A DNA stretch of 27,681 bases from a virus. Each line of letters starts with the position of its first letter. Position 1 is the first letter of the stretch. This document shows positions 21,835 to 27,681 of the stretch, piece after piece. The stretch spans positions 1-27,681 of IMG/VR virus record IMGVR_UViG_3300042555_000278. One strand, written 5' to 3'. Below the pieces are notes generated by a model. That model was given only the letters and a program-made list of their open reading frames with translations. It made no database searches and had not been told where the DNA came from. The translations under genes were made by a program, and so were the position numbers.

Positions 21835-21863
21835 AGTATAGCACAAGTTTGTTACATCAGCAA
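21835..21863 (-). promoter_or_regulatory. Promoter P5 upstream of the pyrophosphohydrolase genes
   Basis: On -: TTGCTG (21863-21858), 17-base spacer, TATACT (21840-21835), TGC before the -10. The -35 is a weaker match than in the other promoters, but spacing and extended -10 agree. Predicted start is near 21828, upstream of the terminator-like hairpin. Its -35 overlaps the end of the exonuclease gene. Confidence 0.62.
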
Positions 21864-22811
21864 GCTTTTACGCTTTTCTTTTGTAGTCTTTGATGTTCTG
21901 TGACGATGTACAGCACCGCATTCACTGCAACGCATTTCATCAAATACATTCAACGATGTTTCTACTGTACGACCTGTAGCTTCAACTTCTGAGCTACCGC
22001 ATACACGGCATCGCACCAAGTCATCATCATAGTACAACGCTGCATTGAAGTCTGAACCTGCACGACCCAATTGGCGAGTACGTAAGTAAACTTCATACAG
22101 TAGATCAACGTCCTGTACGCAGTATTCTACCATTTGTGCCATCGCTTCTTCATCACCTTCTTGTACTTTACGCCACAGTGAAATACCACCAGTGCTAATC
22201 TTACGACCAAGCCCAAAGAATTCACCAATTGCGTCTAAACGATTGCTAGGCAGTTTCAAATACTTCTTTGCTAGTTGCAATGTATCTAGTACTTTGACTT
22301 GTGGTAGCGGAGGAAAACCATTATAGATTGCTCGTGCTTGAACTACCTTGTGATCAAAACCCATGCTATTGTGTGCAAGTACAGCGTCTGCTTGTTCATA
22401 CAATTCAAATAACTTTGCAACAATCCGAGAATCATCTTTGATTAGTACTTCTTCTGCTGAAAGGTAGATGCTTTCTGTAGTATTACTGCCCAACCAGCGC
22501 CAGCAAGCACATAAAATCCAACCACCATTATCTAAGATGTTGTCTTGCGATAAGTTAACCTTGAATCGACCAAAGGTAAGAGCAGTAGCTGCTGCAGTTT
22601 CAGTATCAAATACTAAAATCTTTGGACCTTCTGTTTGCTTAAAGGCTACATCTTCTGGATTATAGAAAGGTTTAGGATCAGCAATCCAACGATTCCAAAT
22701 ATCATTAACAGTAGATTTACCGATACCCAATTCTTGTGCTACTTTGCGACTACTGATACCAGCACCTGTCATTCTCACGACTTGTTCTACGATGTTATTC
22801 GAATGCTTCAT
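21852..22811 (-). CDS. DEDDy 3'-5' exonuclease with N-terminal HTH and C-terminal zinc ribbon
   Basis: 319 residues in three parts. Residues 7-42 form a resolvase/transposase-type helix-turn-helix (V-A-Q-E-L-G-I-G-K-S-T-V). Residues 64-245 are RNase H-like exonuclease: D69-T-E71 (Exo I), N148 to D153 (Exo II), and Y230-x-x-x-D234 (Exo III), so the catalytic set is D, E, D, D with Tyr. Residues 268-298 hold C268-x-x-C271 and C295-x-x-C298, a zinc ribbon. A helix-turn-helix in front of a DEDD nuclease is unusual and suggests targeted DNA binding. It overlaps the preceding gene (ATGA). It may proofread, resect or degrade DNA; no polymerase domain is attached. Confidence 0.8.
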   Translation of the reverse strand: MKHSNNIVEQVVRMTGAGISSRKVAQELGIGKSTVNDIWNRWIADPKPFYNPEDVAFKQTEGPKILVFDTETAAATALTFGRFKVNLSQDNILDNGGWILCACWRWLGSNTTESIYLSAEEVLIKDDSRIVAKLFELYEQADAVLAHNSMGFDHKVVQARAIYNGFPPLPQVKVLDTLQLAKKYLKLPSNRLDAIGEFFGLGRKISTGGISLWRKVQEGDEEAMAQMVEYCVQDVDLLYEVYLRTRQLGRAGSDFNAALYYDDDLVRCRVCGSSEVEATGRTVETSLNVFDEMRCSECGAVHRHRTSKTTKEKRKSLLM

Positions 22812-26119: not shown

Positions 26120-26632
26120 TCAGGGTTTGTAAGTGTTGTAAATTGTACAGGTAATTTGTTGTGGTTTAACAAACGTCCAGTTGTTATATTCATTACCATT
26201 GTAGGACGAATAATTGCAGTTAATCTGAATAAAACCTAGAGTTTCTTTCTGTAAGTTTTGCACTTCATAGACAGCATACACAGGGTATTCACTTAGATCA
26301 TAATCATCAATACTGTTTTGTGTTCGATCATATAGATCATTGTCAAATGAAGCTGCTTTATAGACAAGTTTAAATTCTTGTTCTTTTAATTTTGCATTAA
26401 CTTCATCTTCAAACTCAGATTCATCTGGTTTATAACCACGAATACAATTAGCAATGGTTTGTTTGCGATTACTCACGTACTGATTTAACACAGCAGTAAA
26501 TCGCTTTTCCCACGGAAGTTGTTTTTCCAGTTCTTTAATTTTTTGTGCAGCTTCTTTACGAATTTCTGCAATTTGCTCTTCAGGTGTTAATTCTTTAAAC
26601 ACCATCGGTCCTTTAGCTTTAGCTGTTGCCAT
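26120..26632 (-). CDS. Hypothetical protein with coiled-coil N terminus and shared C-terminal module
   Basis: 170 residues; function not recognised. Residues 15-40 are a coiled coil (E-E-Q-I-A-E-I-R-K-E-A-A-Q-K-I-K-E-L). The middle is basic and helical (N-R-K-Q-T-I-A near 55). Residues 87-168 form the same beta-rich module as the next gene, with F-K-L-V at 87-90, A-V-Y at 120-122, and Y-S-S-Y-N-G at 141-146. AAAGGAGTTAGAAA precedes the ATG; the gene overlaps the upstream stop by 14 bases. It looks like the full-length member of a duplicated pair, with the 115-residue protein retaining mainly the module. Confidence 0.66.
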   Translation of the reverse strand: MATAKAKGPMVFKELTPEEQIAEIRKEAAQKIKELEKQLPWEKRFTAVLNQYVSNRKQTIANCIRGYKPDESEFEDEVNAKLKEQEFKLVYKAASFDNDLYDRTQNSIDDYDLSEYPVYAVYEVQNLQKETLGFIQINCNYSSYNGNEYNNWTFVKPQQITCTIYNTYKP

Positions 26633-27425
26633 TTTCTAACTCCTTTCTAATGTTTTCAAACTTCATTGTATCACACAATTGCATGACTTCTGGATAATAA
26701 TCAATTGCATGATCACGAAACCAACCACTACACAGTGTAGTACACACTTTGTCCAAAGATTTCAGATAGGCATGTCTTACAGGATAATTCCAGTCTTTCG
26801 GTACTAAGAACCGTTCGATTGCAATTACTTGTGTTTCTTCTGCAACGCATTTTGTACGGTCTTCGATGGACAGATTATCCCAAAGATCACGATCACACCA
26901 TGCACTGCTGCTATCACGCTGAAGTTGAGTATACAACGGTTTATCGTAGTATGCAACAAGTTCGTGCAAATAATCGTGATCGTATTTTTTGGTTACGTAA
27001 TCATCAAAGAACTCATCTACGCTTTTCTTCAAGCTTGGATGACCTTGTGGGAAAGCTTGCATTGTTAATGCAGTGCGTTCTTGTAATACATTTTCCATAA
27101 AACTGTCGTATTGTTGACGTTTAACAAATTGCATGTATTTGTGGTAGTGAGTAACATGCTTTTGAAAGCTAAGATTACGCCACAGATGGCTACGTTTGAT
27201 AATTGACAGTCCCCACATATCTACAACGTATAGTTTGTGACCATTAAAATTTACGTTTGCTACGTTTGTAAAGTTCTCAAAGGTAGCATTGTTCAAGAAA
27301 TCAGGTTTATGCCACTCAGCACCTTCAATGGGTTCATCGCTGATAATATCCCAATCTGCATTGGGTTTTAACTGAAAGTCTTTCTTCCAGTAAGCTAATG
27401 CTCGTGATCCAATTAATAGTTTCAT
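26619..27425 (-). CDS. Nucleotidyltransferase-like phage protein
   Basis: 268 residues from ATG 27425, with AAGGAG six bases upstream; a longer frame would read back into the tRNA. The N terminus has L-L-I-G-S-R-A-L near 3-10 and D24-W-D26, the G-S-x...D-x-D core of the minimal nucleotidyltransferase fold. Later parts (K-R-S-H-L-W near 95, then F-Q-K-H-V) match phage proteins of this type, often called hypothetical or nucleotidyltransferase. The C-terminal half is helical with several Trp and Cys. It begins 15 bases after the tRNA, so co-transcription with it is likely. Substrate (nucleotide, tRNA or protein) is not known. Confidence 0.68.
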   Translation of the reverse strand: MKLLIGSRALAYWKKDFQLKPNADWDIISDEPIEGAEWHKPDFLNNATFENFTNVANVNFNGHKLYVVDMWGLSIIKRSHLWRNLSFQKHVTHYHKYMQFVKRQQYDSFMENVLQERTALTMQAFPQGHPSLKKSVDEFFDDYVTKKYDHDYLHELVAYYDKPLYTQLQRDSSSAWCDRDLWDNLSIEDRTKCVAEETQVIAIERFLVPKDWNYPVRHAYLKSLDKVCTTLCSGWFRDHAIDYYPEVMQLCDTMKFENIRKELENGNS

Positions 27426-27440
27426 GTTTACTCCTTTATC

Positions 27441-27516
27441 TGGTGCGACAGGGGAGAATTGAACTCCCGACCAAGGCATTATGAGTACCCTGCTCTTACC
27501 ACTGAGCTACTGTCGC
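27441..27516 (-). tRNA. tRNA with CAU anticodon (Met or Ile2)
   Basis: 76 bases ending in encoded CCA. The 7-base-pair acceptor GCGACAG/CTGTCGC is perfect, which excludes an initiator tRNA (no 1-72 mismatch). The D stem is GCTC/GAGC, the anticodon loop CTCATAA gives CAU, and the T stem is GGGAG/CTCCC with a TTCAATT loop. The anticodon arm and variable loop (GAGCAGG before, CTTGGTC after) look more like bacterial tRNA-Ile2, which reads AUA after lysidine modification, than like elongator tRNA-Met. The nucleotidyltransferase-like gene starts 15 bases downstream. Confidence 0.9.
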
Positions 27517-27681
27517 AATAATATACTAGAAAATACTCATTGAATAATCTCTAGTATATCACCAGTCCCTACACTGGCTTTATACTGTCTTGTTACATCC
27601 GGGCGACAACCCTTTAGCCTTGGAAATCCTGCAGTACCACGCCATCAGTACTTGCATTTTTAATGATAGGACTTTCACCTA
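27517..27681 (-). ncRNA. Structure-rich non-coding stretch upstream of the tRNA, unidentified RNA candidate
   Basis: No credible protein frame exists on either strand in these 165 bases. Read on -, several stems can form: TAGG/CCTA at the window edge around TGAAAGT, AGTAC/GTACT near 27650-27630, CCAGT/ACTGG near 27575, and a 10-base-pair stem ATATACTAGA/TCTAGTATAT just before the tRNA with complementary bases inside its loop. The RNA continues outside the window. Large ornate phage RNAs such as GOLLD or ROOL are known beside phage tRNA genes, but I cannot match this sequence to either; a leader with processing stems is also possible. Confidence 0.42.

Follow-up and report, generated by a model that had tools for sequence, protein, structure and literature searches.

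GOLLD forms an RNA nanocage. It is a structured RNA of phages found near tRNA islands, with many members exceeding 800 nt and one example located downstream of a Met-tRNA, and its expression rises during lysis (PMC12286853). ROOL, a structured RNA of phages and prophages with unknown function, is often found near tRNA islands as well, and in both RNAs kissing loops occur between subunits (PMC12286853). Phage tRNA arrays are known to encode RNAs that are stable or ornate and to which no function has been assigned (rnaC and rnaD of T4, ROOL and GOLLD), and one small family is added to them here.

The element at the contig edge

The DNA analysed (the window, 27,681 nt) is a whole viral record, IMG/VR IMGVR_UViG_3300042555_000278, and the contig end falls inside an RNA element. 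Reading the minus strand from the edge, a structured core of about 140 nt is followed by a long hairpin, by tRNA-Met(CAT) and by a DUF7275/DUF7277 gene (Table 1). The motif GSRAL...DWDI suggests that the product of this gene is nucleotidyltransferase-like. Relatives of DUF7275/DUF7277 were found in 715 phage records, and several of them adjoin tRNA-Arg and noncoding sequence.

An earlier note on this DNA had described 27517-27681 as lacking a reading frame and lying 5' of a tRNA in the same orientation, and had suspected that a structured RNA enters at the right edge. The description was accurate, as no ORF of at least 60 aa was found across this segment and the neighbouring tRNA-Met(CAT) is on the minus strand. 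The minus strand of the 165 nt folds with -48.2 kcal/mol (z = -3.68; 0 of 200 shuffled sequences equally stable), and the fold of the plus strand is less stable (z = -2.85). At the Rfam gathering threshold only tRNA was matched in this region, and at E ≤ 10 the matches beyond the tRNA were at chance level. The reluctance of the note to name a family was justified, since GOLLD, ROOL and introns were all unmatched at the gathering thresholds, and the GOLLD and ROOL models remained so at permissive E-values. Elsewhere in the window, ARAGORN called a tRNA-SeC at 21996-22085; the call lies inside an exonuclease gene (21852-22811), has no Rfam support and is probably false.

Table 1 Features of the RNA element and its neighbours in the window.
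Feature	Position	Strand	Basis or remark
RNA core, 3' two thirds (model positions 61-201)	27543..27681	-	cmsearch with R1, truncated 5'
P3 hairpin, stem UAGG/CCUA(UC), 7-nt loop UGAAAGU	27665..27681	-	sequence
P4 hairpin UGCA(A)GUAC-UGAUGGCGUG-GUACUGCA	27630..27656	-	sequence; helix 6
P1 3' strand GGAU; partner GUCC outside window	27626..27629	-	RNAalifold prediction
P5 hairpin GGG-UUGUCG-CCC, conserved YGUC loop	27601..27612	-	helix 7
P6 whole, including apical stem CCAG/CUGG and loop L6 UGUAGGGA	27553..27586	-	helices 8 and 9
P6 strand a AGUAUA	27586-27581	-	
P6 strand b UAUACU	27558-27553	-	
L6 UAGGGA	27566..27571	-	complement of L2 UCCCUA
3' long hairpin b:c	27516..27564	-	arms 27564-27541 and 27539-27516, 24 positions with mismatches
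Strand c	27539-27519	-	end adjoins tRNA
tRNA-Met(CAT)	27441..27516	-	downstream neighbour of RNA; Rfam match
DUF7275/DUF7277 gene	26619..27425	-	downstream neighbour; context only, outside RNA

Relatives, covariation and fold of the family

The search for relatives started from the neighbouring gene (seven viral contigs) and continued with degenerate patterns, the matches being confirmed with the model. Homologues occur in about 80 viral records from freshwater-type phages, in tRNA gene arrays, and each of the 14 whole records with a match has a single copy, one of them together with a sub-threshold fragment. In three contigs (L002, L005 and L006) the DNA is 81-93% identical to the upstream region; L003 and L004 carry a diverged version. 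One of the phages with a member has been cultured, namely Limnohabitans phage DC31 (PQ492658), in whose record the region is unannotated; the paper on this phage (PMC12195039) contained none of the noncoding RNA terms looked up in it. An exact search with a 20-mer of the window gave no match, and BLAST against phages returned essentially tRNA matches for the window piece, chance matches for the divergent elements of L018 (same as L013), L046 and L073, and DC31 alone for those of L003 and L040. Pattern matches in bacterial genomes were dismissed as chance (best model score 9.6 bits), hence no cellular copy is known. Curvibacter phage P26059A shares the layout of tRNA-Arg, noncoding sequence and DUF7275, yet it had no match to the family model; its segment of about 1 kb without annotated genes (L126:4000-4990) includes tRNA-Arg(TCT) and, between this and the DUF7275 gene, units bounded by hairpins. 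Three contigs encode phage tmRNAs (L040:860-1278, L046:12073-12443 and L107:666-1021), which match beta_tmRNA and tmRNA_permuted and thereby point to betaproteobacterial hosts.

A first alignment of 32 sequences, excluding the window and independent of the later one, was made with MAFFT, and RNAalifold predicted from it helices P1, P2, P3, P5, P6 and part of P4. With the loop-loop pairing included, 97.5% of the cells of this structure were paired and covariation was 0.330 versus 0.139 ± 0.008. The covariance model derived from this alignment, R1, was built without the window and found its truncated copy by cmsearch with 130.3 bits (E = 2e-30). This match and the covariation in the relatives exclude a chance structure and bear out the RNA suspected at the right edge.

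Addition of the window and of 26 more members, many of them divergent, gave 59 distinct rows with pairwise identities of 46-99%, fitted to the nested model and not to the loop-loop pairing. In this set 98.4% of helix cells were paired, two-sided changes occurred in 23 of 38 pairs (among them pairs of P2c, P3, P4, P5, P6a and P6b), and covariation reached 0.451 as compared with 0.148 ± 0.006 for shuffled and 0.043-0.061 for slid alignments; P1 and the base of P2 covary little. The covariation in relatives that the note had proposed to look for is present, and neither of the findings it had named as speaking against an RNA, a coding gene spanning the region or absent covariation, was made. The shape has been kept by evolution while the letters changed.

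The nested helices contain 132 G-U cells against 4 A-C cells, which identifies the RNA as the minus strand of the window. The same count bears on whether the element might act as DNA, as a recombination or replication site with inverted repeats recognised as DNA hairpins. Such repeats are present, and modules (P4 types, 3' hairpin cassettes) appear shuffled among members, but the G-U excess indicates that only one strand folds, the orientation relative to the tRNAs is constant, and the complementarity of a putative pseudoknot (see below) also speaks against this explanation, which is scarcely credible.

The whole RNA, as deduced from the homologues, comprises a closing helix P1, a stem-loop P2, a putative T-loop hairpin P3, P4, P5 with its YGUC loop, and P6. 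The core spans 177-256 nt, and in the relatives tRNAs or genes bound it on both sides. In the window copy the first 60 model positions, with the 5' strand of P1 and with P2 and its predicted kissing loop L2, are beyond the contig edge. The relatives have TTAGTCCCG ... UCCCUA ... in this part, then the hairpin that the window edge cuts, and if the window copy is a full member, TTAGTCCC...TCCCTA is expected at most about 65 bases past the right edge.

The cut hairpin, TAGG-TGAAAGT-CCTA (27681-27667), had already been picked out in the note and is indeed P3 of the family. Judged by its letters, the loop UGAAAGU fits the T-loop pattern; the stem covaries in the relatives (UAGG/CCUA, CGGG/CCCG and others), with four of six pairs changed on both sides. 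P3 is absent from L046, a very divergent member (51 bits), and likewise from L090, and another stem takes its place in L020 and L073. All P4 cells in the relatives are paired (100%), with two-sided changes in 3/3 counted pairs, and helices 8 and 9 of P6 are paired in 97.1% and 99.6% of cells with two-sided changes at every pair. The stem of P5 occurs as GGA/UCC, GGG/CCC, GGC/GCC and GAA/UUC. P1 is paired in 99.1% of cells, its changes being one-sided only, e.g. G-U to G-C. Strand a is TATAAT-like, but its interpretation as a promoter was abandoned, since the AATATG members do not keep the motif.

In L002, P3 and its surroundings weakly resemble a group II intron domain (12.4 bits), a point in favour of a ribozyme or intron remnant. 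The score is below the gathering value of 49 bits, neither domain V nor a group I core was seen and no Rfam ribozyme matched, so that such an origin is very improbable.

Putative loop-loop pairing and the alternative partners of strand b

Loop L2 reads (A)UCCCUA and loop L6 UAGGGA or UAGGGG, and the two are able to pair in 58 of 58 relatives at every position with letters, the sole varying pair being U-A in 50 and U-G in 8. The stems presenting the loops vary; around L2 they are, for instance, CUC/GAG, UUC/GAA, CCAC/GUGG or GUAAAC/GUUUAU. It seems likely from this complementarity that L2 and L6 form a kissing pseudoknot; as the loops hardly vary, no compensatory change occurs between them. The window copy has L6 as UAGGGA, and its L2 falls past the contig edge. 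The segment 5' GUCCC was considered as another partner of L6 and rejected, given that its outer pair is lost in three members (L082, L096 and L110), whereas L2 pairs throughout.

The same loops might instead join different molecules, L2 of one kissing L6 of another, to give an RNA-only homo-oligomer as in ROOL and GOLLD. Their perfect complementarity, the location in tRNA arrays that ROOL and GOLLD share and the kissing loops between the subunits of those RNAs (PMC12286853) would agree with this arrangement. However, L2 and L6 can pair intramolecularly and nothing distinguishes the two modes, and the RNA is far smaller than ROOL and GOLLD and unrelated in sequence; an oligomer is accordingly regarded as improbable.

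The AT-rich stem noted earlier before the tRNA is real, although longer than the 10 bp given, with arms of 24 positions when mismatches are included. Strand b serves both as the 3' side of P6 and in the 5' arm of this b:c hairpin, and the a:b and b:c pairings are mutually exclusive. Most members carry the 3' hairpin, and strand c nearly repeats strand a in the first set of members. In L021, L024 and L040 the hairpin was recognised by eye, that of L040 having a near-zero loop. When 56 members were folded, the mean pairing probability of P6a was 0.75 for the core alone and 0.15 in the precursor, where strand b pairs downstream with a mean probability of 0.82; refolding was not predicted in about ten of the 56. 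The first impression that every member has strand c was overturned by this wider set. Three members (L096, L108 and L125) lack a predicted b:c hairpin yet keep a:b, and within about 15 nt they continue into a tRNA-like sequence with a terminal CCA. Since lineages without c keep a:b, it is this pairing that is conserved, and b:c has been added to it in most lineages.

A 3'-hairpin cassette (CAGGTTGGG ... TATTTGGG ... TAAGATACGGAA) is conserved in L006:3881-3961, L003:3802-3882, L016, L020 and L037, where it resembles a separate structured domain; other members have a different cassette at this place. In L013 and its relatives, four hairpins of this kind fall within 900 nt and alternate with noncoding segments that differ from one another, a recurrence that suits a role in processing or spacing. 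Different noncoding segments of the tRNA array are separated by long inverted repeats (CCATATTGAAGCACA ... TGTGTTTCAATATGG and similar) in L013:252-1171, and likewise in L009, L018, L022, L030, L040 and L046. The 3' arm of each such repeat is also able to pair with the 5' arm of the repeat that follows, and the intervening segment would then be enclosed. Two more noncoding segments lie between these repeats (L013:357-481 and 580-775); no tRNA was predicted in them, and they are possibly further new structured RNAs.

Genomic setting, proposed maturation and comparison with known RNAs

The element and the nearest tRNAs are on the same strand in all members. The nearest upstream tRNA according to ARAGORN is Arg(TCT) in the majority; an Arg tRNA ends 3-6 nt before the element in 8-9 members, and several further members have at this place a tRNA-like sequence with a terminal CCA. 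Downstream the element is followed directly by tRNA-Met (window, L003, L047 and L013), by other tRNAs (L046 and L073), by the DUF7275 gene (L005, L006 and DC31) or by a small ORF (L002), and this inconstancy speaks for action in trans. Sequences resembling tRNAs were also noted just 3' of tRNA-Arg(TCT) in L003:3448-3545, L002:3292-3500 and L126:4368-4466, with normal acceptor and T arms and with anticodon arms enlarged or missing; in L002 and L003 they precede the element.

The fold, the single copy, the borders punctuated by tRNAs and the inconstant downstream gene favour an excised RNA that would act in trans. On balance, the family probably represents a small structured RNA encoded as a single gene in tRNA arrays, excised together with the tRNAs, stable and trans-acting. 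The strongest alternative would be a cis-acting switch, in which the core would be a sensor and strand b, when held in P6, would block b:c and alter maturation or expression of what follows (tRNA-Met or the DUF7275 gene). The exclusive a:b and b:c pairings of most members would suit a switch, as would the complementarity of c to a toehold in b beyond a, the compact junction, the pseudoknot and the highly conserved unpaired bases. It is nonetheless judged unlikely, as the downstream gene is inconstant, there is one copy per genome, b:c has no U-tract, the ribosome-binding site is uncovered in L006 and L003, and several lineages without c still keep a:b.

For the excised RNA the following course is proposed. 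It would be transcribed together with the tRNAs, and its 5' end would arise from 3'-end maturation of the upstream RNA, either a tRNA or a tRNA-like sequence ending in CCA. An RNase III-like cut in the b:c hairpin may generate the 3' end; in members lacking this hairpin, RNase P may do so at the next tRNA. Once b:c is cut, strand b would become available to strand a, P6 would be completed, L6 would kiss L2, and the mature fold would be locked. Other stable RNAs from the tRNA clusters of phages set a precedent by location, and like them the mature RNA might be trans-acting during infection. That maturation and refolding are coupled, with b locked in the b:c precursor until cleavage allows the L2-L6 fold to close and the RNA being active only once excised, is a tentative extension of this scheme.

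The element is best read as a new, uncatalogued RNA family, with no Rfam match and with the earlier literature covered in part, and this small, well-constrained family shows strong covariation, a 3' helix that is probably switchable and a putative kissing pseudoknot. With one member in a phage that is cultured together with its host (DC31 on Limnohabitans DCL3), it can be tested directly whether the RNA is transcribed, how it matures and whether infection requires it.

The "giant" RNA envisaged in the earlier note did not hold, the core of about 195-260 nt and the 3' hairpin of about 50-130 nt contrasting with the 800 nt or more of GOLLD (PMC12286853). The new RNA resembles GOLLD in location and in its putative kissing loops, but it is far smaller and has a different fold; ROOL is similar in the same two respects, with a location at tRNA islands, but is much larger and multimeric. 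With riboswitches that use alternative helices it shares two exclusive pairings of one strand, and it differs from them in having no fixed downstream gene and no terminator or sequestration of a ribosome-binding site that could be seen. The small stable noncoding RNAs rnaC and rnaD inside the T4 tRNA cluster (species 1 and 2, NC_000866; 119 and 139 nt) were rejected as homologues, R1 with filters off giving at best 3.2 bits in the cluster and whole T4 no match. While not homologous by R1, they are the nearest analogues by place: rnaC has a T-arm-like hairpin, comparable to the putative T-loop hairpin of the new RNA, although the folds of the T4 RNAs differ, and rnaD lies 1 nt from a tRNA-Arg with its anticodon read as TCT, which is the usual neighbour of the new RNA too.
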